From the NCBI RefSeq assembly GCF_020923495.1, contig NZ_CP064048.1, positions 1,552,501-1,616,500 on the forward strand: a stretch of DNA of 64,000 bases. Reading direction: 5' to 3'. The stretch comes from Brevibacillus sedimenti (lineage in GTDB: Bacteria > Bacillota > Bacilli > Brevibacillales > Brevibacillaceae). The translations under genes and the position numbers were made by a program. The notes below the pieces were generated by a model. It was not told where the DNA came from. It made no database searches and saw only the letters and a list, made by a program, of their open reading frames with translations. This document shows, piece by piece, positions 11,328 through 51,443 of the stretch (position 1 is the first letter of the stretch; every line of letters begins with the position of its first letter).

Positions 11328-11624
11328 ATGGCTATCAAAGGTCAAAAGTTCAAGCATTATCCTTTGTCGTTGAAAATGGAGGCAATACGATTGCATGTAG
11401 AGGAGAAGTGGACATACAGACGTATCACTGAGCATTTAGGAATCCAGGATAAGGATCGAGTAAAAAAATGGATGCGGAAATACAAACAACTTGGGGAGTT
11501 CGGTCTTTTGGATCAGCGTGGACGACGTCCAGAGTACATCGATCAAGATCGACATGTGAAAAAATTGAAACGGGAGAACGAAATTCTAAAAAAGTGTTTG
11601 GAAATCTGGATGCGGGAGGTGTAA
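11328..11624 (+). CDS. IS3-family transposase OrfA (helix-turn-helix)
   Basis: A 98-residue protein with an N-terminal helix-turn-helix (YRRITEHLGIQDKDRVKKW) and a C-terminal leucine-zipper-like stretch (KKLKRENEILKKCLE), the usual IS3 OrfA plan; it binds the element ends. Near its 3' end the heptamer A AAA AAG (11588-11594) lies in the correct register for programmed -1 frameshifting into orfB, the normal route to the OrfAB transposase. Confidence 0.9.
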   Translation: MAIKGQKFKHYPLSLKMEAIRLHVEEKWTYRRITEHLGIQDKDRVKKWMRKYKQLGEFGLLDQRGRRPEYIDQDRHVKKLKRENEILKKCLEIWMREV

Positions 11625-12420
11625 GAAAAAAGTATCGTGTGATGGAGAATGTGGCAGCATTGTACCCGATTACCGAACTCTCCAAACTTCTTGGTGTATC
11701 GAGGAGTGGGTATTATCGATATCTTGCACAGAAGGAGTGGGATAGAGACGGAGAACTGAAACAGCAGATTCAAACCATCTATGATGAACGAAAAGGAATA
11801 TATGGGTATCGAAGAATTCAAGCGGAACTCCTTCGTCAATACGGCAAGGTTGTGAATCATAAGAAGGTGTTACGGCTCATGCAAATTCTTGGGCTGAAAG
11901 CCATTATTCGTGGCAAACGAGCGTATCGGAGCACGTATCGAGCGGCTGAATCAGATGGTCGTGTTGCCGAAAATTTGTTGAAGCGTGACTTCACAGCCGA
12001 GAAACCGAACCAGAAGTGGGTCACCGATGTTACCCAGTTTCGTGTAGGAGATCAACGTATCTTCTTATCTACGATTAAAGACTTGTTTCACAACGAAATC
12101 GTGGCGCACCATGTGAGCTTACACAATGACAATGTCCTTGTCCTAGAGACGTTTCGGAAAGCATTTGAAAAGCATAAGGACGTGACTGGACTGATCGTAC
12201 ACAGCGATCAAGGCTTCCAGTACACGTCCCATGCATACCACGACATGCTGCAAAAGGTTGGCGCCCGAATCAGCATGTCCCGAAGGGGCAATTGTTTAGA
12301 CAATTCCCCTATGGAGAGTTTCTTCTCGCACTTAAAGGCAGAAGCTCTCTATCCTTATGATATTCGAAGTTTGGATGAGGCGCAAAGACGAATTGAGGAG
12401 TACATTCGTTTTTACAATGA
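11595..12420 (+). pseudogene. IS3-family transposase OrfB, interrupted (5' part)
   Basis: This frame, entered by -1 frameshift from orfA, encodes the DDE integrase. The HTH_21-like region and rve core are intact, with first Asp in WVTDVTQF, second in IVHSDQGFQYTS and Glu in NSPMESFFSHLKAE. Coding stops making sense after IRFYND at 12420, where the IS21-family element enters; the reading frame then runs into element sequence. The missing C-terminus (RLQIKLNKLTPVEYRRQ) is found at 14591-14662. The IS3 copy should therefore be unable to move by itself. Confidence 0.88.
12416..12420 (+). repeat. Target-site duplication of the IS21-family insertion (left copy)
   Basis: AATGA at 12416-12420 is repeated at 14591-14595 directly after the right end of the inserted element. 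Joining the flanks restores the OrfB reading frame (IRFYNEERLQIK). Confidence 0.88.
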
Positions 12421-12491
12421 TGTCAACGCCGACTTTATTTTGACCCACCATCGCCGGTTTAGAATTGACCCACCCGGCGATTTTTTGTTGG

Positions 12492-13259
12492 TTAGGTGGT
12501 AGAGGGGGAGCCGTAGGCTCCAGTCCTCATCTTCTCACGAAGTCGGTAACTATTCCCCCTAATATTGACGATGTGGGAATGGTGTAAGAGCCGATCCAGG
12601 ATAGCCGTAGCAAGTATCGGATCGCCCATCAGTTCCCCCCATTCACCGAAACTCTTGTTGCTGGTCAACAGAATACTCCCTCTCTCGTATCTTGCACTTA
12701 CTACCTGGAAAAAGAGGTTAGCTGCCAAACTGTCAAACGGTAAGTAACCAATTTCGTCAATAATCAGGAGCTTTGGTCGAATATAGATGCGTAGGCGTTT
12801 ATCCAGCCTGTTTTCCGTGTAAGCTTTTCGCAGATCTTCGATGAGTTGCGAGAGACTGACAAAGTAAACGGATATCCCTTGCGAGATGGCTTCTACAGCC
12901 AACGCCACCGCCAGATGACTTTTTCCTACTCCGGGAGGCCCTAAGAACAAGACATTCTCGTGTCGGGTTACAAAAGTCATCGTGGCCAGCTCTCGAATCA
13001 ACCGTTCGTCAATGCTGGGTTGGAAAGCAAAATCGAACTCCTCTAGTGTTTTTCGGTAAGGCAAGTGTGCAAGTTTGGTGCGTACCTCCATATTCCGTTT
13101 TTGACGTTCCGCTATCTCGGCATCAAGGAGCGTGTTAAGAAAGGACAGATAGGTGGGCTGTCCATGACTTGCCGCTTCCAAGTGAGCATCCAAGAGGAGA
13201 GCTGCTTGCTGAAGCCCAAGTTCCTCGAGGCGTAGCCGTGCTTGTTCCAGTTCAATCAT
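12492..13259 (-). CDS. istB: IS21 helper ATPase IstB
   Basis: A 255-residue DnaC-like AAA+ ATPase that helps the IstA transposase choose targets. The Walker A motif GPPGVGKSHLAVALA lies near residues 106-120 and Walker B LLIIDEIGYLP near 165. Its start overlaps the end of istA by four bases (ATGA), the standard istAB arrangement. The reading frame is intact. Confidence 0.94.
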   Translation of the reverse strand: MIELEQARLRLEELGLQQAALLLDAHLEAASHGQPTYLSFLNTLLDAEIAERQKRNMEVRTKLAHLPYRKTLEEFDFAFQPSIDERLIRELATMTFVTRHENVLFLGPPGVGKSHLAVALAVEAISQGISVYFVSLSQLIEDLRKAYTENRLDKRLRIYIRPKLLIIDEIGYLPFDSLAANLFFQVVSARYERGSILLTSNKSFGEWGELMGDPILATAILDRLLHHSHIVNIRGNSYRLREKMRTGAYGSPSTT

Positions 13260-14478
13260 GCTCCCACCCCTGTTAGCTGCTCATAGACATCCAGCGAACG
13301 TACTTCCACTTGCTGCGATGAAATCTGTCGGGCTTGCGGACGTGGATAGGCATATCCTTGAGCGGTCGAAAGACCTGCATACTGGTTTTCGCAAAAAACA
13401 GTTGTGCGGGATCGATAGACCTTTTGGTGTCGAGCAATACATGTGCCGTCGGCCCAGATTTCCACCCACCCATTCACTTCTCGAACGGTTACCTCACGTC
13501 CACTGTACCTCCATGGAACTCCATATCGTACACCATCGTAGCTAACAAATCCGTCTCGGCTGACCTGTCTTGGTTCATGCAAGTATTTTTCCCACCGTTC
13601 AGCTGAAGGGATGGGCGACAGTTTTTCCTCACGGAGTCGGTCAAAGGGACGTTCGCCGGTTGTTCCATGAATACGGCGGTTAATCCGCTCGCACCAGTGT
13701 AGGGCTTGTTGATTGAGATCCTGTAAATCAACGAAGCGTTTGCCAGGAAGAAAGTTGTTTTTTACGTATTGAACGCCTCGTTCCACTTTTCCCTTTGTTT
13801 CGGGGCGTCGAACTTTGCATACTTTTGGAACAAGCCCAATCGCTGCAGCAAAGTCGGCAAAAAGCGGATGCCAGCGAGGTTTTCGATCATCTTCCATGCC
13901 CAGTACGACGGTTTTCATCTGGTCGGTCAGCATTACCTTTGGGATGCCCCCAAAATATTCAAAAGCATGAATCAAGCAACGAAGAAAGCTGTGAATGTCA
14001 CAACGCTTAGTGAACTCTATATAGGTGGAACGAGAGTACCCCAATACCATGACAAATACCGGCACTTTTCGGACTGTACCGTCCAAATCTACGTAATCAC
14101 ACAGTCCCCAGTCGACCTGTGCGTATTCACCAGGTTTCGTCTCGTAACGAAGAACAGCGGGAACTTGTTTGGGAGGACGGAAGTCCTTCACATAGTCTTT
14201 CAAGATGGTACGTCCCCCGGTATACCCCTTTTCTCGTAGAAGATCGAATAAAACCTCGCAGTTATAGATACCTTCTTGAAGACGTTCCTGCAGGAACGGT
14301 TTATACGGATCAAGCTTGGAACCACGAGATTTACGGGTTCCCTTTTCGGGGAGAATTCACCCCGGAGATATCGGCGAACTGTATTTCGAGAATGCCCCGT
14401 TAGACGGGCAATTTCACGAATACTCTTGCCTTCTGCCCTCATGGTATGTAACGATATCACTATCCCACTCCTTAGCAT
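13256..14478 (-). pseudogene. istA: IS21 transposase IstA, single-base frameshift
   Basis: Two overlapping frames make up one protein. The first (ATG at 14478) encodes the helix-turn-helix region (IREIARLTGHSRNTVRRYL) to about GEFSPKRE. The second, from about 14345 to 13256, encodes the integrase core with Asp in YAQVDWG, Asp in MLTDQMKTVV and Glu in RRPETKGKVERG. Adding one G to the GGG run near 14345 joins them as SPKRGTRKSRGSKLDPYKP and gives 1,224 nt, 407 residues, the normal IstA size. A sequencing error in the homopolymer is also possible. Confidence 0.88.
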
Positions 14479-14860: not shown

Positions 14861-14889
14861 TTGACAGAAAATAAAGAATTAAATAACAT
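14861..14889 (+). promoter_or_regulatory. Candidate promoter of the six-cysteine peptide gene
   Basis: TTGACA (14861-14866), 17-bp spacer, TAACAT (14884-14889), in very A+T-rich sequence. Start of transcription would fall almost on the Shine-Dalgarno (14896), so the leader would be very short. A second -10-like TATAAT at 14820-14825 could serve a longer leader, but its -35 is poor. Confidence 0.5.
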
Positions 14890-14911
14890 ACAGACAAGGA
14901 GGTGATTGGGA

Positions 14912-15121
14912 ATGTTTCAAAAAATTTCAAATTTGTTTGGGGTAGCTCCTATGTACGAAGCTTGCGACAGACCTGGATTCATCGGTGGCCCCAAATATGT
15001 ATGCGAGTTGGCCACTTGGTCTGACTGTTTCTCTGATTACGGTACCAAAACGTATATTAAGTACACGTATGACACGAGAAGCGGTGAACGATGTGAGGAA
15101 ACTAAAGTGAGATGCTGCTAA
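14912..15121 (+). CDS. Small six-cysteine peptide, putative secreted disulfide peptide/bacteriocin precursor
   Basis: A 69-residue peptide behind a perfect AAGGAGGTGAT (14896-14906). The first 17 residues (MFQKISNLFGVAPMYEA) have no cysteine; Cys then occur at 18, 31, 39, 61, 68 and 69, enough for three disulfides. A Gly-Gly pair lies at 25-26 but after the first Cys, so a double-glycine leader is doubtful. There is no classical signal peptide, and I recognise no family. The next genes encode two thioredoxin-like proteins, a MauE-like protein and an ABC exporter, so a secreted disulfide-bonded peptide is a reasonable inference. Antimicrobial activity is a guess. Confidence 0.75.
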   Translation: MFQKISNLFGVAPMYEACDRPGFIGGPKYVCELATWSDCFSDYGTKTYIKYTYDTRSGERCEETKVRCC

Positions 15122-15186
15122 CCATTTCATCAGCAAAGATCAGAGGTTCATAGCGCAAACGCCATCAAAATACTTGTGTGGTAGTG

Positions 15187-15224
15187 GAAAAAGGAGGCCT
15201 TTATGAAGGCGACCTCCTTTTTTC
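15187..15224 (+). terminator. Partial terminator between the peptide gene and downstream genes
   Basis: GGAGG and CCTTTATGAAGG form stacked stems with CCTCC, followed by six T. Such a hairpin between a precursor peptide and its biosynthesis genes usually lets the peptide message outnumber the rest. Confidence 0.7.
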
Positions 15225-15265
15225 ACTATCTATGAGCAGACACATATGTTCAGGTGGGGGATGTA

Positions 15266-15799
15266 ATGATTTTTACTTCATATATTGTCTTGGCTTTAGG
15301 ATGGGGGATCCTGTCGGCTCAAATCGTTATGTTCCTCAAAAAGCTAAAAATGGAGATCTCCTTTCTTCCCCAAGCGCGTTACCGGTCGAAGCCCATTCAA
15401 CAATCAGTTGGGAAATCGATTGGTGACATGTTGGCTTTACCGGCTGCCGTAAAAGATAAGATATCTGTTCTGTTAGTATCATCGCCGACTTGCCCGCCTT
15501 GTCATGAAGCATTGTCCGAATTTTTGCGCGAGAATGAAAGATGGCAACTACCGTTTGCTTGTATAACAGAAGCAGATGAAGCGGAATACTTTCAAAAATT
15601 TTATGACGACTATAACCGTTTTGTGGATATTATACCATTTTACAGAAAGAATCTGAAACGGCTCGGTATCACGAAATTCCCTACATTTCTTGTCATTAAC
15701 CAAGAGGGAGTCGTACTTCGCGAATTTTTGCTGGTTCCTTATTTGATGAAATACCTGGCACAAACCATTGGCAAAACAGGTGCAGGAAATGAAAAGTAG
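15266..15799 (+). CDS. Membrane-anchored thioredoxin-like protein (CPPC)
   Basis: About 177 residues: one N-terminal membrane anchor (IFTSYIVLALGWGILSAQIV), a linker, and a thioredoxin fold with active site SPTCPPCHEAL and the cis-proline segment KFPTFLVIN. This is the TlpA/MauD type of extracytoplasmic thiol-disulfide protein. AGGTGGGG at 15252-15259 favours the ATG at 15266 over a GTG at 15254. It lies just after the six-cysteine peptide and overlaps the ABC exporter start by a few bases. It probably makes or reshuffles disulfides in the peptide, though this is inferred from context. Confidence 0.8.
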   Translation: MIFTSYIVLALGWGILSAQIVMFLKKLKMEISFLPQARYRSKPIQQSVGKSIGDMLALPAAVKDKISVLLVSSPTCPPCHEALSEFLRENERWQLPFACITEADEAEYFQKFYDDYNRFVDIIPFYRKNLKRLGITKFPTFLVINQEGVVLREFLLVPYLMKYLAQTIGKTGAGNEK

Positions 15800-17610
15800 T
15801 TATCTTGTGAGAGCGATTCAATTCGTGTGGCAAAGAGGAAAGTGGTGGATGATCGCATCCGTCACATTAAGTATTGTAAACGGTTGCTTCCCGTTTCTAA
15901 CTTTGTGGATTTCAAAAGAGTTAATTGATGAAGTCACTCGTTTTATCCAGAGTGATACATGGGAGTATGTTGCTCTGGTCTGGTTGCTGATCGGACAATT
16001 TTCAATTACAGTTCTTTCATCTTTAAGCAAGAATATTAAGGAATATTTAGATAAACAGATGGTATTTAAAGTAGAATTTGACGTTCAGCACATGATATTG
16101 GCAAACACCTCGTCAGTTCCCGTCATGTATTTTGATCTGGCAGAATATCACAATCATTTGCAACGGATATCGGGGGGAGGATCAAGATTTTTATCACCTG
16201 TACGAACCATGATTGATATGTTTGAAGCTGCACTCAGTTTGTGTTCGTACGCGGCCTTTTTGATTGTAATTCATTGGAGCCTTTTGCTTGTAAGTCTTTT
16301 AGCGACAATTCCCATCTTTTTGGTTCAAGCAAAATATAGTCAACTCAGATACCGTCTCCATGTAAAGCAAAACCCGGTAGCCCGTGAGGCGGAATACTAT
16401 AAATACCTGCTGCAGGATCGAACATCGGCGAAGGAAATTCGGTTGTTTGGGTTGGCTTCCTTCTTTCTCAATCGATGGATTGAAAAATTTGTACAGAATG
16501 CGAGCGAAACGCTTCGATTGGAAAGGAGACAGCAGGGGGGCAGAGGTTGGCATGGAGGCTGTTTCGTCCTTTTTTTACATGGGCATGGCAGTTGCTCTGA
16601 TATGGTTGGCACGCACAACGAAAATGAGCATTGGCGATTTCATTGCTATTATCCAGGCGATACAGGGAACACAAGGAACATTGAACCGTATCTCCACGCT
16701 TCTTGCAAAGTTGTATGAAGAGAAGTTGTACATCAAAGATTTTTATCAATTTTTTGAGATTAAGGAACCGCGCATCGAGATTAACAAGGGTCAAGAACCA
16801 TTTCCTACTCCCATCCAGAGGGGAATCACGTTTGAAAATGTTTCGTTCCGCTATATTCATGGTGACCGGGATGTTTTGTCCAATGTTTCCTTTCATATTA
16901 ATCCCCAGGAGAAGATTGCCATCATAGGGCAAAATGGGTCGGGAAAAACCACGTTGATTAAATGTCTAATGGGCTTGTACCCCCCTCTTCACGGACAGAT
17001 TAAAATAGATGGAAAAAATATCTTTGACATTGACCAAAAACAATTGCTGAGTAACATTACAGTGATTTTCCAGGATTTTATTCGATATCATTTAACGGTT
17101 CGAGAGAATATTGCAGTTGGCGATATTAAGAGAATGGATGATTGGGAGAGGATTCAGGCCGTTGCAAAAGTAAGCGGAACAGACTCCTTCATTCAACAAT
17201 TCGCGCTAGGATATGAGACACCCTTGGGCAGACTACTGGTGGACGGAGAAGACCTCTCAGGTGGGCAATGGCAAAAAATAGCATTAGCGCGAGCCTTGTT
17301 TCGCGACAGTCAAGTAGTGATTCTAGACGAACCGACCGCTTCGCTCGACCCAATAGCTGAAATGGAAATTTTTCAAAACTTTAAACTCCTTGCTGATAAG
17401 AAAATCGCCATTTTTATTTCGCACCGGATGGCAGCATCCAGAATGGCCGACAGAATTATTGTCATGAAGGAAGGAAAAATTGTGGAAATGGGTACACATG
17501 AAGAGTTGATGGAACTCAGGCAAGAGTATTACCACATGTATACCATGCAGGCACAATGGTTTTCCGCAGAAAGCGAATACACGAAGGAAGTGGTAGGATG
17601 GAGGAACTGA
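15789..17610 (+). pseudogene. ABC exporter (membrane plus ATPase domains), one-base frameshift
   Basis: The first frame (15789 to about 16530) gives an exporter membrane domain with five or so spans and no C39 peptidase domain. The second frame (about 16535-17610) completes it with an ATPase domain: Walker A IGQNGSGKTT, signature LSGGQWQKIALARA, Walker B VVILDEPTASLD and switch His in FISHRMA. The break is at a run of six G (about 16534-16539); removing one G joins the frames as RRQQGAEVGMEAV and gives 606 residues, a normal half-transporter. It probably exports the six-cysteine peptide. Whether the lesion is real, a sequencing error or a slippage site is open. Confidence 0.85.
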
Positions 17611-18164
17611 GTTTATTTGCACGAGTGATTCTGGGAACCCTGTTTTTGAGTACAAGTGTCACGAAATTCCGAAAAAAGGAGGAGCATGTAGCCACTGTTA
17701 TCAACTACCGAATCCTCCCTCCTTCTCTCGCATATCCGTTTGCACGTGCGGAGATGGCAACAGAATTGGCGGCAGGGATTCTGTTATGTGTCGGTTTGTT
17801 TCAACAGGCTGCTGCTTTGCTTTGCATATTGCTTCTGGCCGTCTACTCGTGCGCGATCGCAATAAATCTCGTGCGTGGGCGCAGGGAGGTATCTTGCGGT
17901 TGTGGCGGTATTGCAGGCAATCACACCCTGTCCTGGTGGCTTGTGTTGCGCAATTTCACTTTGATGATAATGGGAGGATGGCTTTTCCTTTATCCGTCTG
18001 CGTGGGTAAGTACGGACAACTTGTTGAGAGGAGAGCCTTTCAAGCTTTTTTATCCACGAATCTTTGAAGTCGTGATTGTTTCATGGTTGGTTGTAATGAT
18101 GGTTATCATCTCCAATCACCTTTGGGAATTATCAAAACGAATCAAGAGCTTCCGGAGAAGCTAG
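17598..18164 (+). CDS. MauE/DoxX-like redox membrane protein
   Basis: About 188 residues with four to five membrane spans and a conserved VSCGCGG motif in a loop near residue 108. This fits MauE, a membrane partner that supports disulfide formation in methylamine dehydrogenase, probably by passing electrons to the quinone pool. It overlaps the exporter gene by 13 bases and is followed by a MauD-like thioredoxin, so a MauD/MauE pair is rebuilt here next to a peptide with six cysteines. No methylamine genes are present. The ATG at 17598 follows GGTAGG. Confidence 0.78.
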   Translation: MEELSLFARVILGTLFLSTSVTKFRKKEEHVATVINYRILPPSLAYPFARAEMATELAAGILLCVGLFQQAAALLCILLLAVYSCAIAINLVRGRREVSCGCGGIAGNHTLSWWLVLRNFTLMIMGGWLFLYPSAWVSTDNLLRGEPFKLFYPRIFEVVIVSWLVVMMVIISNHLWELSKRIKSFRRS

Positions 18165-18189
18165 CTTAACTCATGCGGGGAGTGGAAGT

Positions 18190-18735
18190 ATGGATAACAA
18201 ATTGGTAATCTCAAATCTTTTATTATGGGTGGTCGTCTTTATTCAAACCTTTATCCTGTTCGTTTTTGTTCGTCTGGTTGTCCAATTTTTAAATCGTTTT
18301 CGGCTGGGGGACATCCGGTTAGAGCCGCAAACTTTAGCCAAAGGAGACAAAGCGCCTTTTTTCCGGGAAAAGGATCAGCATGGGCAAATCGTAAGAATGC
18401 CGGATGAACAAGAAAAAAATACGTTGATGGTATTTACAAACGACATGTGCGGAACATGCAAACACGTGGTACCTGAATTAGCTCATGTAAAAAGACATTA
18501 CACCGATCTCAGAATTGTTGTTGTGTCCAATCCAATCTACTACGAAGAAGGCTTGCAGGTGCCAGATGGTGTTCATCTCATTCGTTCGGATGGACTTATG
18601 AATACATACCTGATTCATTCGGTGCCAACCGCGATGCTGATCGACCGGGAAGGAATCATTTTAGCCACCCAATCCGTTTCCAGTTACGAGAATATTATGG
18701 ACATGATTGGCCTATCGTCTGAAAAAGTAAGCTAG
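18190..18735 (+). CDS. MauD/TlpA-like thioredoxin (CGTC)
   Basis: A 181-residue protein with one N-terminal membrane span (residues 8-30), a GDKAPFF segment typical of MauD/AhpC-TlpA redoxins, active site NDMCGTCKHVVPEL and cis-proline SVPTAMLID. It should sit on the outer face of the membrane. Together with the MauE-like protein before it, it would complete a disulfide relay for the secreted peptide. The gene ends nine bases before the next ATPase gene, suggesting one transcript. Confidence 0.82.
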   Translation: MDNKLVISNLLLWVVVFIQTFILFVFVRLVVQFLNRFRLGDIRLEPQTLAKGDKAPFFREKDQHGQIVRMPDEQEKNTLMVFTNDMCGTCKHVVPELAHVKRHYTDLRIVVVSNPIYYEEGLQVPDGVHLIRSDGLMNTYLIHSVPTAMLIDREGIILATQSVSSYENIMDMIGLSSEKVS

Positions 18736-18744
18736 GGGGAACCA

Positions 18745-19437
18745 ATGAGTACAGCCATCACACTTGTGGACGTGGAAAAAACCTACCATGGTGACGGTGT
18801 GGTTACCCGAGCGCTTCAATCCGTCACCTTGACGCTGGACAAAGGACAATTTACCGCAATTCTCGGCCCCTCAGGGTCGGGAAAGACGACATTGCTTACC
18901 CTGATCGGCACGCTTGACCGACCGACGGCTGGAACGATCAGATACGGTGACGTGGACGTTCTGGCGTTGAAGGGGAAGCGAATTGCCGATTTCCGTTTTG
19001 AGCACATCGGGTTCGTGTTCCAACAATTTCATCTATTGCCCGCGTTGACCGCGCTGGAGAACGTGATGGCACCGTTGTTTTCGCGAAAGGTTTCCTATGA
19101 CAAAAAAGCGAGAGCACGGGAACTGCTGGCCTGGGTGGGGCTGGAGGCCAAGAGCGATGCACTGCCGTCCCAATTATCGGGCGGGGAACAGCAGCGCGTG
19201 GCGATTGCCCGTGCATTGGTCAATCGTCCGGACTGGCTGCTTGCCGATGAACCGACTGGCAATCTGGATACGAGAAACAGTGAAAACATCGTGAAACTGC
19301 TGCGAACCTATCAGCAGGAGCACGGTAGCGGCATTGTCTTGATCACGCATGATCAAACCTTAGCTGATCAAGCGGATCGGATCATCGAGATGCGCGATGG
19401 GCGAATCGTGTCCGATTCCGGGAAGGAGACGGGATGA
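18745..19437 (+). CDS. MacB/LolD-type ABC transporter ATPase
   Basis: A 230-residue ATPase with Walker [15 protein letters not shown]-loop [18 protein letters not shown], signature [17 protein letters not shown] and Walker [16 protein letters not shown], the wording of the LolD/MacB/FtsE group. These work with FtsX-type permeases as mechanotransmission machines, not ordinary import or export pumps. It overlaps the next gene, a large FtsX-type permease, by four bases. Base composition is higher in G+C than the peptide genes before it. Confidence 0.92.
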
Positions 19438-22400
19438 TTCAGTATATTTGGACACAGTGGTGGCGTCACCCCGAACGCTTTCTCCTGCTGCTGGTCGGAA
19501 TGTTGGCCGTCAGTTCCGTTCTCAGTTACTTTATCGGCGTTACGGAGAGCAGCAGCGGCACGACCCACGATATTTTGCAAAAACGCTGGAAGGCGGCCTA
19601 TCATCTGGTGGTTCGTCCCCCGGATACACGCAGTGTCACGGAACGGGACGGGCTATTGGAACCCAACTATCTGAGCGGTCTGCACGGGGGAATCAGCCTC
19701 GCGGATTACGAGGCGATCAAAAGAATGTCAGATATAGAAGTTGCCGCACCGCTGGCCCCTATCGGATACGACAGGCCCGTTTTTTCGTTTGGGAAGATCA
19801 GCAAGCCCAAACAACCGGGAATCTATCGGCATGTTGTGGAGGTATATGCCAACGATGGTGTACAACCCAATCTAATGATGCAACAGACAAGGTATTACAC
19901 CGTCGGCCCTTGGAGCATGCCGACCGATTGGGAACAGGCGCTGCGTGACTATGGGGTGGAATCATGGATACTAGATGTGGGCGGAGGAATCAATCAACAA
20001 CTGCTGGTTGTTGGCATCGATCCTCAGGCAGAAGCGGCGTTGGTCGGATTGGATCAAGCCGTCTTGCCGATAGGGAAAAGCCGGTATTTTACGGAACAGG
20101 ACAAAGTGACAACGATAAATGTGGGAGACGGACGAAAGGTGATGCATCTGCCCATCCTGATGAGCAGCAGAATGGACAGCGACCTGAAGGTTACTTACAG
20201 GTACGAACGCTTGGATCTCCCGTTTGCGACGAGTGAAGATGCCAACCGGACGATGGAAGAGGTGAAGAAGAACGGAGGGGTTTCCTATCTGCACCAACAA
20301 AAAAGCGCTGGAGAACGGCTGGAATATGAGTTTGACTCTCGGCAGATGCACCAATTGATTATGGCCAGTTTGTCGGGCGTGGACCCTGAAACGGGACAGC
20401 CTTTTTCACGCGATGATCACGGTGGCCAGTCTGCCTCTCTCGGTGGACTAATTTTGGAAAAGCCTTCTTCGCTTTCCCTGCGAAAAGTGAGCAGTCCTTA
20501 CCCAGAACGCTGGCCTTACGGGTACGAGGCGATACCGGTGCAGCCCCATATTCCGGCAGAACTTCAGACATACTTCTTAATGAAGCCCGAGCGATATCCC
20601 AACTCCTTTCGCTCCACCCATTTTTTTGTTGATTGGAAAAACCGGAAAATAACCCCTTACTGGATAGGGTTTTACGATCCCGAAAAGTTGCGTATTTCCA
20701 AAGAACCGGACAGCGAGCTGCCCATGGAAACCTATCGGCCCGCTACTGGGCGGTTGGTGCTGGACAAAAACGACAGACCATTAAATCCCCCGGTACAGGT
20801 GAAACCGACTGACAATCCGTTTGGACTTCTTACCAGTCCACCTCTGCTGTTGACTACCTTGGAAGCGGCAGCAGAGGTGTTGGGTGACAAACCGATTGCC
20901 GCGATTCGGCTGAAGGTAAAGGGAGTGCAGGAGGTAAGTGAAGAGAATAAGGAAAAACTAGAATTATTGGCGAAAGAGATCGAAAACAAGACAGGATTGA
21001 TCGTCGATATCACCCTGGGATCGTCTCCCCAGCCCGTTCTCGTTCACATCCCGAAAAACGGTACGTACGACGAGTCGGGGTGGATGGAGCAGTTTTTTAT
21101 CAAGCTTGGGACGGCTTTTACCCTGGTTCAGGAGACGAAGCTGGGCTTTTCCGGGGTGATTGGTATCGTGATGCTCATAGCTGTTGCCTACGTGTTCGCC
21201 ACCAATCTGGTTACGCTGTACGCCCGGACAGACGAGTTCGGTCTGCTGCTTGCTGTCGGCTGGCGGCCCGGACGCGTGGCGGGCATGATGTTTGTTGAGG
21301 CGGCCCTGTTGGGGGGAGGGGCCGCGCTGGTTAGCTGGGCAATCGCGGGATTTGCTGTATGGCAGCAACAAGCAGCGGTGCCGGTGTGGCGTATTTTTTT
21401 CATCGGTTTGTGCGGTCTGGTCATTTATGTGCTTGCGGCGATTCCGGCTGCATGGCTAGTCCGCAAGATAACGCCGCACGTAATCATGCGGTATGGCGAG
21501 ATGCGTCCCGTGACTCGACGGACCGTGCGGGTGAAGGGAACGTTTTCTCTGGCCTGGGGCCATTTGTTGGCAAGGTATCGCCGCAGTCTGTTGTCCGTCT
21601 TTGCCATGGCGGTGCCCACCTGCTTTCTGGTCTTTTATGAGTTTGTCACGAACCGCCTGCAGGGAGTTCTGTACACGTCGTGGCTGGGGCAGTATGTGGC
21701 CGTTGAGATCGGGGATGTCCATTACATCGCGATGATACTCGCCTTGGCACTGGCTGTGCTGACAACGGCGCAGATCATGTGGCAAAACGTCATGGAACGA
21801 AAAGCGGAACTGCTGTTGCTCAAGGCCGTCGGTTGGCGCAGCGGGGCTATTTTTCGCCTGATCGTATGGGAAGGGGTGATGTGCGGACTCCTCGCTTCCG
21901 GATGCGGGCTGGCTTTGGGATGTGCCTTGATTGCGTGGATGTACCGTCAGTTGCCCGGCCTCGATGTCCTGTGGCTGATGGGGGTCGGCTTGATTCCGAT
22001 ATTGGCAGCCCTCCTCGGGGCTCTTTTTCCGGCGGTAATGGCGATGCGCCTAAGGCCGGCCGCAGGCATTCGCGGATCACAACGAAATCGTCAGCGTACG
22101 GAACGGAAGCTGCAGTTGACGATTGCGGTGCTGCTGGTTTCCAGCCTGTTAGGAGCTGCAATCGGCACGACCCGGTTGTGGCAGATGAATCCCCGCCAGG
22201 AGGCAGATATATCGATTTCTGCATACGCACCCAATCAGTCAACAGGGGACGGAGCCAAAGACAGACCGGGCAAGGTTAGCGATCTGTCCGGATTTGATCC
22301 CCGTCCGGTTCCAGACGGGAGCAAAGGAACGTACCAGTTGGCTTTTCACATGGATCACAGCGGGAAATTTACGGCTGAGGCGACGATTGTGGTGGAAAAC

Positions 22401-23576
22401 CATTCGCCGGATACCTGGGATCGCTTGCTGTTTTACTTTATTCCCAACGCGTTTACCAACGCCAACAAGCCCCATACGGTAAAGGACGCGGCCGACGTGA
22501 AGATCGTCAGCCTCCACCTGGATCGGCAGAAAACGGATTACCAGCTTACACATGATACGCTCACCATTCCCCTGACGGAGGGGATGGCACCGGGCGAAAA
22601 GCGGGAAGTACGCATCTCGTACACGTTTACGGTCCCGAAGGACGGAATTCGTTTCGCCAGGAAAGGGCAACGCTATTACCTGGCCCAGGCCTATCCGATG
22701 CTGGCTACGTACCACAACGGATGGAACAAACAGGATTTCCGGATCAGCAGCGAATCCTATCATACGGGTCATGCTGATTTTACCGTTTCCTATCACATTC
22801 CAACAGGGTATCTGTTCGTCAGTTCGTCTGATCAAGATCCGGTTGAAGCGACAGAGACGGGGCAGGTGACCATTTCTCGCGTCAGAGAAGTGTTTGCTGC
22901 GGTCGTAAACGGCCTTACCTCCGTTTCCGACAACGTAAGCGGAGTACAGATTCGCGTGTTTGGCGAGGAAGTGAACAGGGGGAAAATGGAATCGGTGCTG
23001 GCAGCCGCCAGGGAGGCCGTGCCGTTTTTCATCAACAAGATCGGCAGCTATCCCCATCGGCAACTGGACATCATGCTGGACGATGGCGCCAGTATGGAGT
23101 ATCCCGGCATCGTAACCGTCGCTCCGCAAGACGACCTTGCATCATTGAGAAAAACGGTCGTTCACGAGATTGCCCATCAATGGTTCTACGCTGTTGTGGC
23201 AAACGACCCCTATCACGAGGGCTGGCTGGACGAGGGCATAACCGAATTCGCGGTCTCTCTGTTCTTGCTTGGTCACGACAAGATGACAGAGGAGGAGGTT
23301 TTCGCTCGAGCCAACCGGGCTGGTGAGAAGCCGTCCAATCTGCCGTTGAACCAGTATGACGGCGAAACCTACGGAGCGTTTTACGTCGTTCCGCCACTGC
23401 GGCTGTGGGAGTTGGTCTCCAAGTACGGCGATGTGGAAGAAGGCTGGCGTTTTCTTCGCGCGTATTACGAGAGATATGCCTATCAACAGGTGGACACCAA
23501 GGAGTTTATCCGGTTTGCGACGACCTATTTCCCGGTGACAGAGACGTATTTTTCCTCCTGGCTCAAACTGCAGTAA
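19434..23576 (+). CDS. FtsX-type ABC permease fused to an M1 metallopeptidase domain
   Basis: A continuous 1,380-residue protein. One span near residues 15-35, a large outer domain to about 560, then clusters of spans (about 575-700 and 720-900) form a double FtsX-like permease. After a last span near 885-905, the C-terminal 450 residues form an M1 (gluzincin) peptidase: GASMEYPG at about 1216, zinc site HEIAHQW at 1244 with the third ligand in GWLDEGITEF (HEXXH-X18-E), and a likely catalytic Tyr in YGAFYVVPPL. All catalytic residues are present, so it should be active on the outer face. Processing of the exported peptide or immunity are both possible. Confidence 0.88.
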   Translation: MIQYIWTQWWRHPERFLLLLVGMLAVSSVLSYFIGVTESSSGTTHDILQKRWKAAYHLVVRPPDTRSVTERDGLLEPNYLSGLHGGISLADYEAIKRMSDIEVAAPLAPIGYDRPVFSFGKISKPKQPGIYRHVVEVYANDGVQPNLMMQQTRYYTVGPWSMPTDWEQALRDYGVESWILDVGGGINQQLLVVGIDPQAEAALVGLDQAVLPIGKSRYFTEQDKVTTINVGDGRKVMHLPILMSSRMDSDLKVTYRYERLDLPFATSEDANRTMEEVKKNGGVSYLHQQKSAGERLEYEFDSRQMHQLIMASLSGVDPETGQPFSRDDHGGQSASLGGLILEKPSSLSLRKVSSPYPERWPYGYEAIPVQPHIPAELQTYFLMKPERYPNSFRSTHFFVDWKNRKITPYWIGFYDPEKLRISKEPDSELPMETYRPATGRLVLDKNDRPLNPPVQVKPTDNPFGLLTSPPLLLTTLEAAAEVLGDKPIAAIRLKVKGVQEVSEENKEKLELLAKEIENKTGLIVDITLGSSPQPVLVHIPKNGTYDESGWMEQFFIKLGTAFTLVQETKLGFSGVIGIVMLIAVAYVFATNLVTLYARTDEFGLLLAVGWRPGRVAGMMFVEAALLGGGAALVSWAIAGFAVWQQQAAVPVWRIFFIGLCGLVIYVLAAIPAAWLVRKITPHVIMRYGEMRPVTRRTVRVKGTFSLAWGHLLARYRRSLLSVFAMAVPTCFLVFYEFVTNRLQGVLYTSWLGQYVAVEIGDVHYIAMILALALAVLTTAQIMWQNVMERKAELLLLKAVGWRSGAIFRLIVWEGVMCGLLASGCGLALGCALIAWMYRQLPGLDVLWLMGVGLIPILAALLGALFPAVMAMRLRPAAGIRGSQRNRQRTERKLQLTIAVLLVSSLLGAAIGTTRLWQMNPRQEADISISAYAPNQSTGDGAKDRPGKVSDLSGFDPRPVPDGSKGTYQLAFHMDHSGKFTAEATIVVENHSPDTWDRLLFYFIPNAFTNANKPHTVKDAADVKIVSLHLDRQKTDYQLTHDTLTIPLTEGMAPGEKREVRISYTFTVPKDGIRFARKGQRYYLAQAYPMLATYHNGWNKQDFRISSESYHTGHADFTVSYHIPTGYLFVSSSDQDPVEATETGQVTISRVREVFAAVVNGLTSVSDNVSGVQIRVFGEEVNRGKMESVLAAAREAVPFFINKIGSYPHRQLDIMLDDGASMEYPGIVTVAPQDDLASLRKTVVHEIAHQWFYAVVANDPYHEGWLDEGITEFAVSLFLLGHDKMTEEEVFARANRAGEKPSNLPLNQYDGETYGAFYVVPPLRLWELVSKYGDVEEGWRFLRAYYERYAYQQVDTKEFIRFATTYFPVTETYFSSWLKLQ

Positions 23577-24295: not shown

Positions 24296-24445
24296 GAACC
24301 CCCCGAGGGATGGACGACAGCGCCATCCCTTTTTCGTGTGCCCGGCAAACGCGCAGGCAAATCCGGCGGGACCCGTCTATTTACTGCCGCTGGAAGTCTT
24401 TTGGTATAGTACAAACTAGGGAGTATAAGAGCGAGGTGTATGCCG

Positions 24446-25144
24446 ATGTCGACCATCATGATCGTGGAAGACGATCCGAAGATTACGAAACTGCTGCAAA
24501 ACCAGTTGGAGAAATACGGCTATCACGCGGTTACGATCGAACACTTTGACCGGGTGATGGAGGTGTTTGGCGAGGTGAAGCCCGACCTGGTGCTGCTGGA
24601 CGTAAACCTGCCCAAGTACGACGGGTTTTACTGGTGCCGGCAGATTCGGCAGGTGTCCAACTGCCCGATTCTGTTCATTTCTGCGCGGGAGAGCAAGATG
24701 GACCAGGTGATGGCGCTGGAGAACGGTGCCGATGATTACATCACCAAGCCGTTTGACTACGATGTAGTGCTGGCGAAAATCCGCAGCCAGCTTCGCCGCG
24801 CCTACGGGATATACGCCGTTCAGGAAGGGGAGCGGACGGTGGAGGTAGCCGGGCTGAAGCTGTTTCCGGAGCGGATGGAGCTGGTGATCGCTGACAGAAA
24901 AGTGGAGCTGAGCAAAAAAGAGGCCCTGCTCCTGGAGGCGCTGATCAACCAGTACCCGCGTATCGTCAGCCGCGAACGCCTGCTGGAGAAGCTGTGGGAC
25001 GAGCAGTTCGTGGATGAAAACACGTTGAACGTGTACATTACGCGCGTGCGCAGCAAGTTGAAAGACCTGAATCTGGACGGAGCGATTGAGACGGTTCGCG
25101 GCTCCGGCTACCGCCTGCGGGTCACCTGGGAGGACGGACGATGA
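24446..25144 (+). CDS. OmpR-family response regulator (BceR-like)
   Basis: About 232 residues: receiver domain with acidic pocket VEDD and phospho-acceptor Asp52 in LLDVNLPKYDG, then a winged-helix DNA-binding domain ending ETVRGSGYRLRVTWE. The neighbours (intramembrane-sensing kinase, ABC ATPase, 10-span permease) make it a BceR-type regulator of resistance to cell-wall peptides. GAGG at 24433-24436 places the start at ATG 24446 more likely than ATG 24440. A -10-like TATAGT at 24405 may drive the regulator-kinase pair separately from the ABC genes. Confidence 0.9.
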   Translation: MSTIMIVEDDPKITKLLQNQLEKYGYHAVTIEHFDRVMEVFGEVKPDLVLLDVNLPKYDGFYWCRQIRQVSNCPILFISARESKMDQVMALENGADDYITKPFDYDVVLAKIRSQLRRAYGIYAVQEGERTVEVAGLKLFPERMELVIADRKVELSKKEALLLEALINQYPRIVSRERLLEKLWDEQFVDENTLNVYITRVRSKLKDLNLDGAIETVRGSGYRLRVTWEDGR

Positions 25145-26157
25145 GGCTGTTTTGGAAAGACCAGATCGTCTTTCTCGTGTTTTTCTTTGTCCAGTTGGCA
25201 TTGCTGGTGCTCATCTTTGCGCTGGCCGGCTACTGGAACCCTTTGCTGACCAGCTACGGGGTGTTTCTGTGCGCGTTTTTTGCCGGCAGCTACCTGGTCA
25301 TCCGCTACCTGTTGAACCGGCAGGTCTACCAACGGCTCAGCAATCCAATCGAATCGCTGGAGGAGTTGAACCAGCACCACGGCAACGCCGCCCTGGGACG
25401 CGCGGTCGACCAGACGTTTCAGGAATTGTACCGGCTGTTTAAGGGACAGCTCCACGCCTACGAAGCGAAGCAGCGGGAGCACACGACGTTTATCCAGCAG
25501 TGGGTGCACCAGATGAAAACGCCGATCTCGGTCATTCACCTGCTGTTGCAGGATGACCCCGATCCGCGGGCGGAGAGTGTCCGCGAAGAGGTGGACCGGA
25601 TCAAGCGTGGACTGGAGACGGTCTTGTACATCGCCCGGCTGGACCGGTTTGAACAGGATTTCCTCATCGAACCGGTTGTGCTTAGGCAGTTGGTCCAGGC
25701 GGTGGTGTCGGAGAACAAGCGAATGTTTATCCGCAATCAGGTGTATCCCGAAGTGAAGGTGGACGAGCGGTTTACGGTGGAGTCGGACGAGAAATGGCTG
25801 TCGTTCGTCCTGAATCAACTGCTGACCAACGCCGTCCGTTACTCCGCGGGCAAAAGCAGCAAAGTGGCCATCCTCGCCTACTCGCGCGGAATGGATGTGG
25901 TCCTGGAAGTGCGGGACAACGGCATCGGCATTCCCCCGCAGGACGTCCACCGCGTGTTTCAGCCGTACTTTACGGGGGAAAACGGCCGCCGCTACCCGGA
26001 ATCGACCGGCATGGGGCTGTATTTGGTCAGGGAAATCTGCGGCCGCCTGCATCACAAGGTGGAACTGGACTCAAAGGTGGGGGAGGGCACGTCGGTGCGC
26101 ATCGTCTTTTCTGCCGTCGTCCCAACCTTACAAGATCGTAAGGAGGATGAAAGCTAA
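25141..26157 (+). CDS. Intramembrane-sensing histidine kinase (BceS-like)
   Basis: A 338-residue kinase with two close N-terminal membrane spans (about residues 12-55) and almost no outer loop, the mark of Bce-type kinases that sense through their ABC transporter. The phospho-acceptor is His123 in QWVHQMKTPISVIH; the ATPase domain shows N box FVLNQLLTNAVRYS, G1 VRDNGIGIPPQ and G2 STGMGLYLVREIC. It overlaps the regulator gene by four bases. Its last codons contain the operator for the ABC genes downstream. Confidence 0.92.
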   Translation: MRLFWKDQIVFLVFFFVQLALLVLIFALAGYWNPLLTSYGVFLCAFFAGSYLVIRYLLNRQVYQRLSNPIESLEELNQHHGNAALGRAVDQTFQELYRLFKGQLHAYEAKQREHTTFIQQWVHQMKTPISVIHLLLQDDPDPRAESVREEVDRIKRGLETVLYIARLDRFEQDFLIEPVVLRQLVQAVVSENKRMFIRNQVYPEVKVDERFTVESDEKWLSFVLNQLLTNAVRYSAGKSSKVAILAYSRGMDVVLEVRDNGIGIPPQDVHRVFQPYFTGENGRRYPESTGMGLYLVREICGRLHHKVELDSKVGEGTSVRIVFSAVVPTLQDRKEDES

Positions 26158-26191
26158 TTCGATAGCTTGACAGCGCGCGTGTCCGTATAGT
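26126..26191 (+). promoter_or_regulatory. Bce-type operator and promoter before the ABC genes
   Basis: CCTTACAAGATCGTAAGG with TTACA-N4-CGTAA (26128-26141), TGAAA, CGATAGCT at the -35 position and TATAGT (26186-26191). The operator-to-minus-10 distance is exactly that of the sigma gene promoter (44 nt between TGTAA/CGTAA and the -10). The operator lies inside the end of the kinase gene. Confidence 0.72.
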
Positions 26192-26249
26192 GGGAAGTGT
26201 GGAAACAGAAGACTGCATGGGAAAATCTCAAACGAAAGGAGACGCGTAT

Positions 26250-27020
26250 ATGGACATGTTGCAAGTCAGGAAACTCAGCAAAATATACGGCGGCAAGGTC
26301 ACGTATCGCGCGCTGACCGACATCGATTTTACGATTCGCAAGGGGGAGTTTGTCGGCATCATGGGGCCGTCCGGAAGCGGGAAAACGACGCTTCTTAACA
26401 TGATCTCCACCATCGACAAGCCCACTTCCGGAGAGGTGCTGTTGAACGGCACCAATCCCCACCTGTTGAAAGGGAGCAGGCTGGCCCTGTTCCGCCGCCG
26501 GGAATTGGGCTTTGTCTTCCAGGATTTCAACCTGTTGGACACGCTGACCATCGGGGAAAACATCATCCTGCCGTTGACGCTGGACGGTGAAAACGTGCGC
26601 GTCATGCAGGAGAAGCTTGAAACCGTGGCAGTCAAATTGGGCATCAGCGACATCCTGGACAAGCGCACCTACGAGGTGTCAGGCGGCCAGCGGCAGCGGG
26701 CGGCCATTGCGCGGGCGATCATCCACTCGCCGTCACTCCTGCTGGCGGACGAACCGACGGGCAACCTGGATTCGAAAGCCTCCCGCAGCGTGATGGAGAC
26801 GCTGGAAGCGATCAACAAGAACGACGGCACAACAATGATGATGGTCACCCACGACCCGCTGGCGGCCAGCTACTGTCACCGCGTCATTTTCATCAAGGAC
26901 GGACAACTGCACAACGAGATGTACCGGGGAGAGAGCCGGCAGGCGTTTTTCCAGCAAATCATCGACGCCTTGTCTCTGTTGGGAGGGAACGCGCATGACC
27001 TTTCGGCAATTCGCGTTTAA
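26250..27020 (+). CDS. Bce-type ABC transporter ATPase (BceA-like)
   Basis: About 256 residues with Walker [17 protein letters not shown]-loop FVFQDFNLLDTLTIGENI, signature VSGGQRQRAAIARAIIH and Walker [16 protein letters not shown]. With the permease it should form a Bce-type detoxification module that protects lipid II cycle targets from peptides such as bacitracin and also signals to the kinase. AAAGGAG at about 26236 fixes the ATG at 26250; longer readings back to 26190 would run into the promoter. Confidence 0.93.
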   Translation: MDMLQVRKLSKIYGGKVTYRALTDIDFTIRKGEFVGIMGPSGSGKTTLLNMISTIDKPTSGEVLLNGTNPHLLKGSRLALFRRRELGFVFQDFNLLDTLTIGENIILPLTLDGENVRVMQEKLETVAVKLGISDILDKRTYEVSGGQRQRAAIARAIIHSPSLLLADEPTGNLDSKASRSVMETLEAINKNDGTTMMMVTHDPLAASYCHRVIFIKDGQLHNEMYRGESRQAFFQQIIDALSLLGGNAHDLSAIRV

Positions 27021-28920
27021 AAACGTCTCCCGCAACAAGCGCACCTATGCCGCGTTTTTCATCAGCAGCGTCTTTTCCGTGATGATTTTCTTCATCTACG
27101 CGATGTTTATCTTCCACCCGGAGATTAAGAACGGAAATATTAACGCCAACGTGAAAATAGGCATGATAGTGGCCGAGTACATCATCTACCTGTTTTCGTT
27201 CTTTTTCCTGTTTTACTGCGTCGGTGCCTTTTTGAAAAAGCGGGAAAAAGAGTTTGGCATCCTGTTCATGCACGGCATGACCCGCTTTCAGCGCAACATG
27301 CTGATCTTCATGGAGAACTTCATCATCGGCTCGCTGTCGATTGTGTTTGGCATTGGCTTGGGGATGGTGCTGTGCAAGCTGTTCTTCCTGTTTGCCGGTT
27401 TCCTTCTGGAAGTGGAGGCGCTGCCGTTTTACTTCCCGCTCAAGGCGATTGCCTTGACGGTGGCGGCGTTCCTCTTCCTGTTTGTCGCCATCTCCGTGTG
27501 CATCGTCCTGTTTTTGAGGCGGAGCAACCTGCTGGAACTATTGCAGGGAAGCCAGCGGCCAAAACGGGAGCCGAAAGCCTCGGTCTTTCTCTCGCTGTTG
27601 GCGGCGGGGCTGCTGGGGACAGCCTACGTTTTGGCGTTTAGGGCGGACGGGATGTTCGTCCCGCTCCTGCTGCTGCCAGTCAGCGCACTGACGATTGCCG
27701 GTACCTACCTGCTGTTCACACAGTTGAGCGTGTTCATGATCCGGCTGTTGAAGCGAAACCGCCGCTTTTACTGGAAGCGCACCAACCTGGTGACCCTCTC
27801 CGATCTGGCCTACCGGGTAAAGGACAACGCGCGCATGTTTTTCCTCGTCTGCATCGTCTCCACGGTAGCGTTTTGCGCGATCGGAACGCTGGCGGCTCTG
27901 GCAAGTTCCATTGAGGAAACAGTGGTCAAGACTCATCCGTTTGCGTTTGAGTATCGGCAGTATGTGGGGAAAAAGGCGGAACAGGAATATCTGGAGAAAC
28001 GTCTGGCCAAGATTGAAACGGCGTTGGCTGAAGGCGGTTTTTCCTTTGAAAAATACGCCCTGACGATGCGCTACCTGCCCGTCCCGGAAAGCGCAGACAA
28101 GCGCTACTCCGCGGTCGCCGTAGTGAAGCAGTCCGATTACAACCGCTTTGCCCGCGCGGCTGGCGCCGAGGAAGTGACAGCAGTCGAGGGAGAAGCAATC
28201 TACTACTCGCGAAGAACCGGCGAAAGGCCGATCAAGAGCGGGACGCTGCAGATCGGAAGCGCATCCCTTCAGCTCAAAAGTGGGGAAGGGGTTCCCCTGA
28301 TGGATCCATTCAGGGGCGAGCCGCTCGTCGTCGTGCAGGATGAGCTGTACGACCAGGTCAAAGCGGAAAAGGAACAGCATAACTATGGCTACGTCGTGGA
28401 CAACTGGAAAGAGACGAAGGTGCTCAGCGAAAAGCTGGATCAGGAATTTAGCGACGAAGACGCCATGTTGAGCGACTTTATCATGAACGACTTTTCCGCC
28501 CGCACTTCGGATTACTACATGTTGAAACAGCTGGCCAACACCAGCCTGTTTATCGGTCTCTTCGTCGGTGTCCTGTTCTTCGTCGCAGCGGCAAGCTTCC
28601 TGTACTTCCGCCTGTACACCGATTTGGAAAACGACAAGCGGCAGTACGGCGCCATCACCAGAATCGGGCTCTCCGAACAAGAGCTGTCCAAAATCGTCAC
28701 GACGCAAATCGCCCTGTTGTTCTTTGCTCCCATCCTGGTGGCAATCGTCCACAGCGCCGTCGCGTTTGTGTCGCTGCAAAGCTTTTTGAAGCTGCTGTTC
28801 ATCGCATCGGTCTTCAAACCGACATTGATCGTGCTGGCAAGTTTTGTGCTGGTGCAATTCGTCTACTTCTGGATTATCCGCAACCGCTACCTGTTCCACT
28901 TGAAAAAAGCGGTTTTGTAA
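26995..28920 (+). CDS. Bce-type ABC transporter permease (BceB-like)
   Basis: A 641-residue FtsX-family permease with ten predicted spans and a large outer domain (about residues 310-510) between spans 7 and 8, the BceB layout and length. The start MTFRQFAFKNVSRNKRTYAAFF is typical of the family. It overlaps the ATPase gene by 26 bases and has its own GGGAGG. The outer domain sets ligand specificity in this family, so the peptide bound cannot be named from sequence. The peptide of the 14.9-kb island is a possible ligand. Confidence 0.92.
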   Translation: MTFRQFAFKNVSRNKRTYAAFFISSVFSVMIFFIYAMFIFHPEIKNGNINANVKIGMIVAEYIIYLFSFFFLFYCVGAFLKKREKEFGILFMHGMTRFQRNMLIFMENFIIGSLSIVFGIGLGMVLCKLFFLFAGFLLEVEALPFYFPLKAIALTVAAFLFLFVAISVCIVLFLRRSNLLELLQGSQRPKREPKASVFLSLLAAGLLGTAYVLAFRADGMFVPLLLLPVSALTIAGTYLLFTQLSVFMIRLLKRNRRFYWKRTNLVTLSDLAYRVKDNARMFFLVCIVSTVAFCAIGTLAALASSIEETVVKTHPFAFEYRQYVGKKAEQEYLEKRLAKIETALAEGGFSFEKYALTMRYLPVPESADKRYSAVAVVKQSDYNRFARAAGAEEVTAVEGEAIYYSRRTGERPIKSGTLQIGSASLQLKSGEGVPLMDPFRGEPLVVVQDELYDQVKAEKEQHNYGYVVDNWKETKVLSEKLDQEFSDEDAMLSDFIMNDFSARTSDYYMLKQLANTSLFIGLFVGVLFFVAAASFLYFRLYTDLENDKRQYGAITRIGLSEQELSKIVTTQIALLFFAPILVAIVHSAVAFVSLQSFLKLLFIASVFKPTLIVLASFVLVQFVYFWIIRNRYLFHLKKAVL

Positions 28921-40814: not shown

Positions 40815-40826
40815 GGGGGGAGTTAG

Positions 40827-45911: not shown

Positions 45912-45930
45912 CTGATTCCCCAGCGGTTGC

Positions 45931-46100: not shown

Positions 46101-46119
46101 ATAAGGAAGGTCGCTGTTT

Positions 46120-47541: not shown

Positions 47542-47560
47542 CTGATTCCCCAGCGGTTGC

Positions 47561-47730: not shown

Positions 47731-47749
47731 ATAAGGAAGGTCGCTGTTT

Positions 47750-49174: not shown

Positions 49175-49194
49175 TGCAAGGAGGAGCAAAGTTT

Positions 49195-51198: not shown

Positions 51199-51227
51199 CA
51201 TCAATTAGGTGAAAGGAGCGAAATGTC

Positions 51228-51407: not shown

Positions 51408-51443
51408 TAATGCTCCAATCATTGCGGAGGGAAGGTGTGTAAC

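Follow-up and report, generated by a model that had tools for sequence, protein, structure and literature searches.

Laterosporulin and laterosporulin10 are class IId defensin-like bacteriocins of Brevibacillus (models NF033806 and PF17861; PDB IDs: 4OZK and 6LWZ). Laterosporulin is antibacterial, and the available part of the original paper names a hypothetical protein, an ATP-binding cassette (ABC) transporter and a dehydrogenase gene as its neighbors (PMC3293901). In Streptomyces, decRiPPter predicted three candidate families of ribosomally synthesized and post-translationally modified peptides (RiPPs) with MauE, one also with MauD, and with precursors of at least 8 Cys; the accessible portion of that text proposes that the MauE/MauD proteins modify the precursor (PMC7794033). 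Our literature searches turned up nothing that describes a MauE cassette for Bacilli or ties one to laterosporulin. Here we describe a locus within a 64,000-nucleotide window of the 3.93 Mb genome of Brevibacillus sedimenti (contig NZ_CP064048.1, positions 1,552,501 to 1,616,500; coordinates below are those of the window), in which a six-Cys peptide gene is followed by genes for two thioredoxin-like proteins, an ABC exporter and a MauE-like protein, and then by genes for a MacB-type ATPase and for a fusion of an FtsX permease with an M1 metallopeptidase. We consider it likely that the locus encodes a secreted, three-disulfide, defensin-like antibacterial peptide together with its own maturation line, in which MauE and the thioredoxin-like proteins would oxidize the peptide at export.

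The peptide gene (14912..15121, + strand, as are all genes of the locus) lies behind a full ribosome site (AAGGAGGTGATTGGGA) and encodes 69 residues with Cys at positions 18, 31, 39, 61, 68 and 69, the core being preceded by about 14 leader-like residues. It is followed by a membrane-anchored thioredoxin-like protein with a CPPC motif (15254..15799; Thioredoxin_2 at 21.2 bits, under the Pfam cut-off of 27); an ABC exporter in two pieces, a 5' piece with the membrane domain (15789..16718, PF00664 at 30.9 bits) and a 3' piece with the ATPase domain (16384..17610, PF00005 at 118.8 bits); a MauE-like membrane protein with CGCGG (17598..18164; PF07291 at 90.1 bits against a Pfam gathering cut-off of 27); and a MauD-like membrane-anchored thioredoxin with CGTC (18190..18735; AhpC-TSA at 27.6 bits, cut-off 26). 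The mauE open reading frame (ORF) opens at 17556, and its start at 17598 was taken from aligned relatives. The CGTC protein scores 42.7 bits with the MauD equivalog TIGR02661 and does not reach its cut-off of 188.6. No C39 peptidase was found by Pfam in the exporter 5' piece, whose membrane domain starts at residue 21. The peptide, both thioredoxin-like proteins and MauE had been called in an initial annotation of the sequence, and each call was borne out.

A gene set of the same type surrounds laterosporulin. Using a pattern from its published N-terminus, we located the laterosporulin gene in 2 of 39 family genomes. At one of these loci (L060) the peptide matches NF033806 and PF17861 (116.6 and 140.8 bits) and PDB 4OZK, and its neighbors are a LuxR-type regulator, a CxxC protein without a Pfam match, an ABC exporter, a redoxin-like protein (under the Pfam cut-off), MauE (PF07291 at 78.5 bits) and a further small protein with neither CxxC nor a Pfam match; a third genome (G036) has the same gene order with a laterosporulin-family peptide. 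Both the window and the laterosporulin loci place thioredoxin-like proteins (those at laterosporulin falling under Pfam cut-offs or judged by CxxC), an ABC exporter without a C39 domain and MauE beside a small Cys-rich ORF, and in both a six-Cys peptide is followed by a hairpin, a CxxC protein, the ABC protein, a redoxin-like protein and MauE. In a tree of ABC proteins, a branch with 100/100 support separates 27 cassette proteins, two of them from laterosporulin loci, from three further exporters encoded in this genome. These three rows, two of them long, form the outgroup, and a fourth other exporter of the genome lies outside the tree. The redox relay appears to have gone unrecognized in the original laterosporulin paper, as far as its available text extends.

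The peptides themselves differ. The window peptide gives no match to NF033806 or PF17861 at E values up to 1, and its Cys spacing is 12-7-21-6-0 versus 1-13-14-7-7 in laterosporulin, so by sequence it is not a laterosporulin. It also carries an N-terminal leader-like segment that laterosporulin lacks, and the order of MauE and thioredoxin-like genes differs between the loci. Only laterosporulin has the LuxR-type regulator upstream, and no FtsX-M1 match was seen in the 15 kb around it.

Methylamine dehydrogenase maturation shares with the window locus MauE, by Pfam, and a MauD-like membrane thioredoxin, although the MauD score is far under the equivalog cut-off and no methylamine dehydrogenase is among the window proteins scanned. 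Sublancin-type glycocins have dedicated thiol oxidoreductases beside the Cys peptide and exporter; in contrast, the eight window proteins scanned include no glycosyltransferase and no C39 domain. Actifensin, a defensin-like bacteriocin with three disulfides, has genes for ABC transporters close by, but its paper, in the part available, mentions no thioredoxin, oxidoreductase or MauE, and the actifensin-type motif C-X5-12-C-X3-C-X9-10-C-X4-5-C-X-C (PMC6989792) is not fitted by the window peptide spacing. The Streptomyces candidates resemble the window locus in having MauE, and in one family MauD too, beside Cys-rich precursors; as described in the accessible text, to which this likeness is confined, they are computational, carry at least 8 Cys and are given no link to laterosporulin or Bacilli (PMC7794033). 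The initial annotation had presented the locus as a candidate undescribed system with a peptide of no named family. The peptide indeed matches no family model in Pfam and NCBIfam scans; the system itself has precedent in the laterosporulin cassette and in the earlier prediction of MauE candidates in Streptomyces (PMC7794033, available portion).

Single-query and profile searches with the peptide, a check that the initial annotation had put forward, returned homologs with conserved Cys, including records named Brevibacillus and Geobacillus; among the named records found, the closest locus is that of Brevibacillus borstelensis NRRL NRS 818. Relatives from Brevibacillus and from an Exiguobacterium plasmid retain all six Cys, and the pattern C-x7-13-C-x4-8-C-x17-23-C-x6-7-C-x0-1-C is found in 18 of 20 aligned members, the other two having a seventh Cys (the alignment omits P0008, near-identical, P0011 and P0019, with incomplete Cys sets, and P0028, whose start is doubtful). 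Between the window and B. borstelensis the peptide has a nonsynonymous divergence (pN) of 0.152 and a synonymous divergence (pS) of 0.783; pN is also well under pS for seven gene segments compared with B. borstelensis, with pS near saturation. Because homologs keep the six Cys and pN is far under pS, the ORF is, on the evidence of its conservation, a real gene. The ORF is short and matches no family model, as would a chance ORF beside a cassette that acts on another substrate; with the conserved homologs, the low pN and the strong enrichment of Cys-rich ORFs at cassettes described below, we regard this explanation as ruled out for practical purposes. A structure predicted from 20 sequences (pLDDT 74) contains three strands (residues 25-33, 46-54 and 60-68) and is compatible with a defensin-like core.

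Further examples of the cassette come with a Cys-rich peptide, either a homolog of the window peptide or one of another kind, and we conclude that the peptide and the thioredoxin/ABC/MauE/MauD genes belong together. The initial annotation had named the lack of a homologous peptide ORF at other cassettes as a refuting observation, and this result speaks against such a refutation. In B. borstelensis, in a further Brevibacillus genome (G008) and in an uncultured Brevibacillus, a homolog of the window peptide precedes genes in the order thioredoxin-ABC-MauE; in the last of these the order can be followed until the contig ends inside mauE. MauE relatives occur in 13 of 26 genus genomes (E up to 1e-8), and a MauE profile built from ten proteins has matches in 30 of 398 Bacilli genomes (E up to 1e-15). 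Two further peptide types in Brevibacillus each accompany thioredoxin, ABC and MauE genes: a four-Cys peptide of 49 to 51 residues that reads away from the cassette and a four-Cys peptide of 32 residues that sits after MauE. The latter (MFKKLLQKLGASAFAGCQKGCVRNGPLCECPW type) is nearly invariant 3' of MauE in six Brevibacillus loci (L049, at 7745-7840, L050, L051, L052, L054 and L055). Most of 20 fetched neighborhoods have the cassette with differing small Cys-rich peptides, and the cassette also occurs on Priestia and Exiguobacterium plasmids.

Of 39 loci tallied around MauE, 37 have an exporter, 38 a thioredoxin-like protein and 37 an exporter plus at least one thioredoxin-like gene. These loci are partly redundant, with close copies among L046-L048, L049-L055, L060/L061/L108 and L062/L063. 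A Cys-rich ORF with a ribosome site is found in 32 of the 39, that of L049 probably being a chance ORF beside the real 32-residue one. The intergenic DNA inside the cassettes contains 37 such ORFs in 32.1 kb versus 3 in 56.0 kb outside, two of these three being peptide relatives by sequence (L057 and L106); under a stricter filter at 38 loci the figures are 27 in 31.2 kb inside versus 1 in 55.6 kb outside. One locus whose contig ends inside mauE (L022) is outside both tallies, and L098 is absent from the second and was anchored on its ABC protein in the first. Seven loci have no qualifying ORF; three of them have a peptide by other views (L057, just beyond the span; L061, laterosporulin; and L105), and no peptide was found in L053, L109 and L111, which have cassette genes, or in L104, where MauE stands without exporter or thioredoxin. 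Several peptides share one cluster at L098 and L103. The single cassette of L103 (7581-10063) encodes three distinct six-Cys peptides, each with a MLNQLMKMLG-like N-terminus; a second six-Cys peptide gene lies about 6 kb from the first on an Exiguobacterium plasmid (L106, 3276-3449), and a ten-Cys peptide adjoins a distant cassette in genome G183 (L115, 9421-9606).

Many of these peptides share an N-terminus although their cores are otherwise unrelated. With a nine-residue profile and leave-one-out scoring, 17 of 23 peptide N-termini (several of which share a locus or family) fall in the top 1% of 600 controls, which were first-start ORFs; a further four of the 27 peptides were too short for the test. 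The consensus is about M[FLI]xK[LFI]xK[LM][LFIM]G and is amphipathic. The six misses are G008, L098b, L103c, L105, L112 and L114, and in L098b and L103c the motif seems to be displaced by one residue. We take this as strong but not formal evidence for a common N-terminus. If one type of exporter recognized all of these peptides by a leader, a constant N-terminus with variable cores would be expected. In the window peptide, residues 1 to about 14 align with a segment missing from some relatives, namely on the Exiguobacterium plasmid, in genome G150 and among database entries; of eight such short relatives, five begin MKY[VI]PC, one MKYEPC and one MKYTSC, and in the eighth MKYIPC is preceded by additional residues.

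On balance we favor, if only somewhat, the view that Bacilli harbor a large unnamed class of disulfide peptides, of which this locus would be one branch. The class would be defined by a short amphipathic N-terminus, variable cores of 4 to 10 Cys, a common MauE-centered thioredoxin relay and an ABC protein without C39; the laterosporulins, which lack the N-terminal segment, would be its sole characterized branch. There is a fair chance that the whole set of peptides and cassettes deserves recognition as a class. If this is correct, the relay would act generally, forming the disulfides of peptides that fold in many ways, and if it accepts cores of different folds it may serve the production of disulfide-rich peptides. 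The combination of MauE, a thioredoxin-like protein and a C39-less ABC protein offers a genetic handle for Cys-rich bacterial peptides missed by family models, and it ties an orphan gene set to a characterized antibacterial.

Based on these comparisons, we propose how the peptide might be made, which gives a concrete scheme for the oxidation of a three-disulfide peptide in Gram-positive bacteria. Transcription may start at a sigma-70-like promoter match 5' of the gene (TTGACA-17-TAACAT, 14861..14889, + strand), which comes from a consensus scan alone that returned 4 promoter-like sites in the region versus 1.8 expected from shuffles. Between the peptide gene and the cassette lies a hairpin with a T-rich 3' arm (within 15184..15226, + strand; -22.9 kcal/mol, z -5.5), a possible terminator or attenuator, at which a terminator scan returned a minus-strand site only. 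Hairpins were also found in the five other loci folded, the laterosporulin gene included; these were picked by eye from eight, with L045 and L062 outside the folded set. The hairpin, itself shown by folding, would cause the peptide to be made in excess and may limit read-through, as the initial annotation proposed. The amphipathic N-terminus, shared across peptides, would direct the peptide to the ABC exporter. On the outside of the membrane, electrons from the six Cys would pass to the membrane through MauE and both anchored thioredoxin-like proteins, leaving three disulfides; the genes are linked, and the chemistry is modeled on MauE/MauD and on laterosporulin, a three-disulfide product that has the same cassette type.

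The peptide could instead be exported and oxidized as a signal, a sporulation or adhesion factor or a metal-binding peptide and not as a bacteriocin. The full-length peptide is slightly acidic, MauE is related to DoxX (PF07681 at 33.1 bits), one protein (P0003) has a weak match to the copper-RiPP maturation protein HvfX (20.9 bits, cut-off 80), and L098 and L103 encode more than one peptide per cluster. However, laterosporulin, the sole characterized peptide found in this cassette type, is antibacterial (PMC3293901, as far as available), and the patchy distribution, extending to plasmids of two other genera, is as expected for competition peptides. We consider a function other than that of a bacteriocin unlikely.

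Downstream of the MauD-like gene lie a MacB/LolD-type ABC ATPase (18745..19437, + strand; PF00005 at 122.5 bits, the best NCBIfam model being LolD, under its cut-off) and the FtsX-type permease fused to an M1 metallopeptidase (19434..23576, + strand; PF02687, and PF01433 at 31 bits, cut-off 27.7). The zinc site HExxH-x18-E is intact (HEIAH-x18-E at residue 1244), as the initial annotation had indicated. Full-length FtsX-M1 proteins occur in 6 of 26 genus genomes (G000, G022, G023, G024, G010 and G008), and the same six carry the peptide family; the search found five, the peptide of G022 being decayed, and the divergent peptide of G010 was found through its cassette. The M1 part alone is present in four or five other genus genomes. 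On a purB tree this label requires at least three changes (possibly one gain and two losses), with neighbors G009 and G003 lacking both peptide and FtsX-M1, so the co-occurrence is not that of one unbroken clade. More widely, some part of the FtsX-M1 protein is matched in 58 of 398 Bacilli genomes, the permease part being common. The macB/FtsX-M1 pair can thus be regarded as a module separable from the cassette, although across the genus it occurs where the peptide family does. FtsX-M1 is not an obligatory part of the cassette, as it was not seen beside the surveyed cassettes of other peptide types.

The pair likely protects the producer, with the permease fused to the M1 domain in Brevibacillus. 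The initial annotation had suggested that the peptide is trimmed by the M1 domain, which would then remove the N-terminal segment after export. In favor of such trimming are the shared occurrence in six of 26 genomes, its recurrence over at least three changes on the purB tree, a second FtsX-M1 copy beside the G008 cassette, and one Exiguobacterium plasmid on which a permease without M1 adjoins a peptide without the N-terminal segment. The last point says little, because the chromosomal permeases of the listed Exiguobacterium-like genomes match only residues 1 to about 880-947; as these homologs also end before the M1 part, we rejected the idea that the plasmid permease is a truncated M1 fusion. 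Against trimming, many other cassettes share the N-terminus, yet no M1 gene was seen in the stretches of about 10 kb surveyed around MauE outside the window peptide family, and in G010 and G008 a macB/FtsX-M1 pair adjoins purB without the cassette. Trimming as a general step is not supported by this survey. It is possible for the window peptide in particular, but we judge it improbable, and protection of the producer is the likelier role of FtsX-M1. The two FtsX-M1 proteins of G008 are 60% and 45% identical to that of the window, one by purB and one by the cassette elsewhere (L126, 10633-15553; L023, 12463-16602). Relatives of the M1 peptidase also lie 5' of pur genes, two in G010 (L127, 3556-6640) and one in G008 (L126, 5229-7076).

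The ABC exporter, taken as intact in the initial annotation, is not: the two pieces of its gene (15789-16718 and 16384-17610) are in different frames. Aligned with its B. borstelensis counterpart (L021), which is uninterrupted and to which the 3' piece is 73% identical, the window gene has a G run near 16535 that is longer by one base. Production in this genome is doubtful as a consequence, unless the extra base is an assembly error, and the window copy may be dead or misassembled. We give an even chance to the window copy being a decaying remnant, in which the exporter is lost, the peptide is unsecreted and macB/FtsX-M1 is retained for resistance to neighbors. Besides the frameshift, the IS insertions adjoining this copy and the state of the sister genome G022 agree with decay: there the peptide is broken and a deletion runs from the first thioredoxin gene into mauD, while macB (99% identical) and FtsX-M1 (94%) are intact. 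On the other hand, one-base changes in G runs are a typical assembly error, and in the window the peptide, both thioredoxin-like genes and mauE are all open. Decay would concern the window copy alone and is compatible with the proposed export and oxidation of the peptide by the system as a whole.

The locus reads rightward from purB (9918-11213), which forms its left flank. Between purB and the peptide gene lie IS3-type and IS21-type transposase genes (11468..14478), the latter apparently split into a 315-residue rve/Mu-C ORF and a preceding 92-residue ORF (13256-14478, minus strand). The G+C content is 42-47% from the peptide gene to mauD versus 54-60% in purB, macB and FtsX-M1, and B. borstelensis, G008 and the uncultured Brevibacillus likewise have a cassette lower in G+C than the DNA on either side. 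The distance from purB to the peptide gene or its remnant is 3,699 bp in the window, and 289, 653 and 288 bp in G024, G023 and G022, respectively; the insertion sequence (IS) elements therefore arrived after the cassette, and we reject IS-borne transfer of the cassette. Of the initial argument for transfer, the A+T richness and the upstream IS elements are real, but the IS elements, being later, do not point to it. Given the low G+C of the cassette at four Brevibacillus loci, an older acquisition is possible.

To the right of FtsX-M1 is a Bce-like module of a response regulator, a histidine kinase, an ABC ATPase and an FtsX permease (24440..28920, + strand), present as first annotated; we treat it as a neighbor and, at most, a candidate part of the system. 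In L056, L126 and L127, FtsX-M1 is followed by ORFs that resemble this module, as assessed from their sizes and similarity alone. Farther along the window, five von Willebrand type A (VWA) proteins (four of 472-474 residues and one of 436) are encoded at 44493-55654. With genes for an AAA_31 ATPase and for a type II/IV secretion ATPase nearby (39657-42212), this region resembles a Flp/Tad pilus locus in which VWA genes are repeated.

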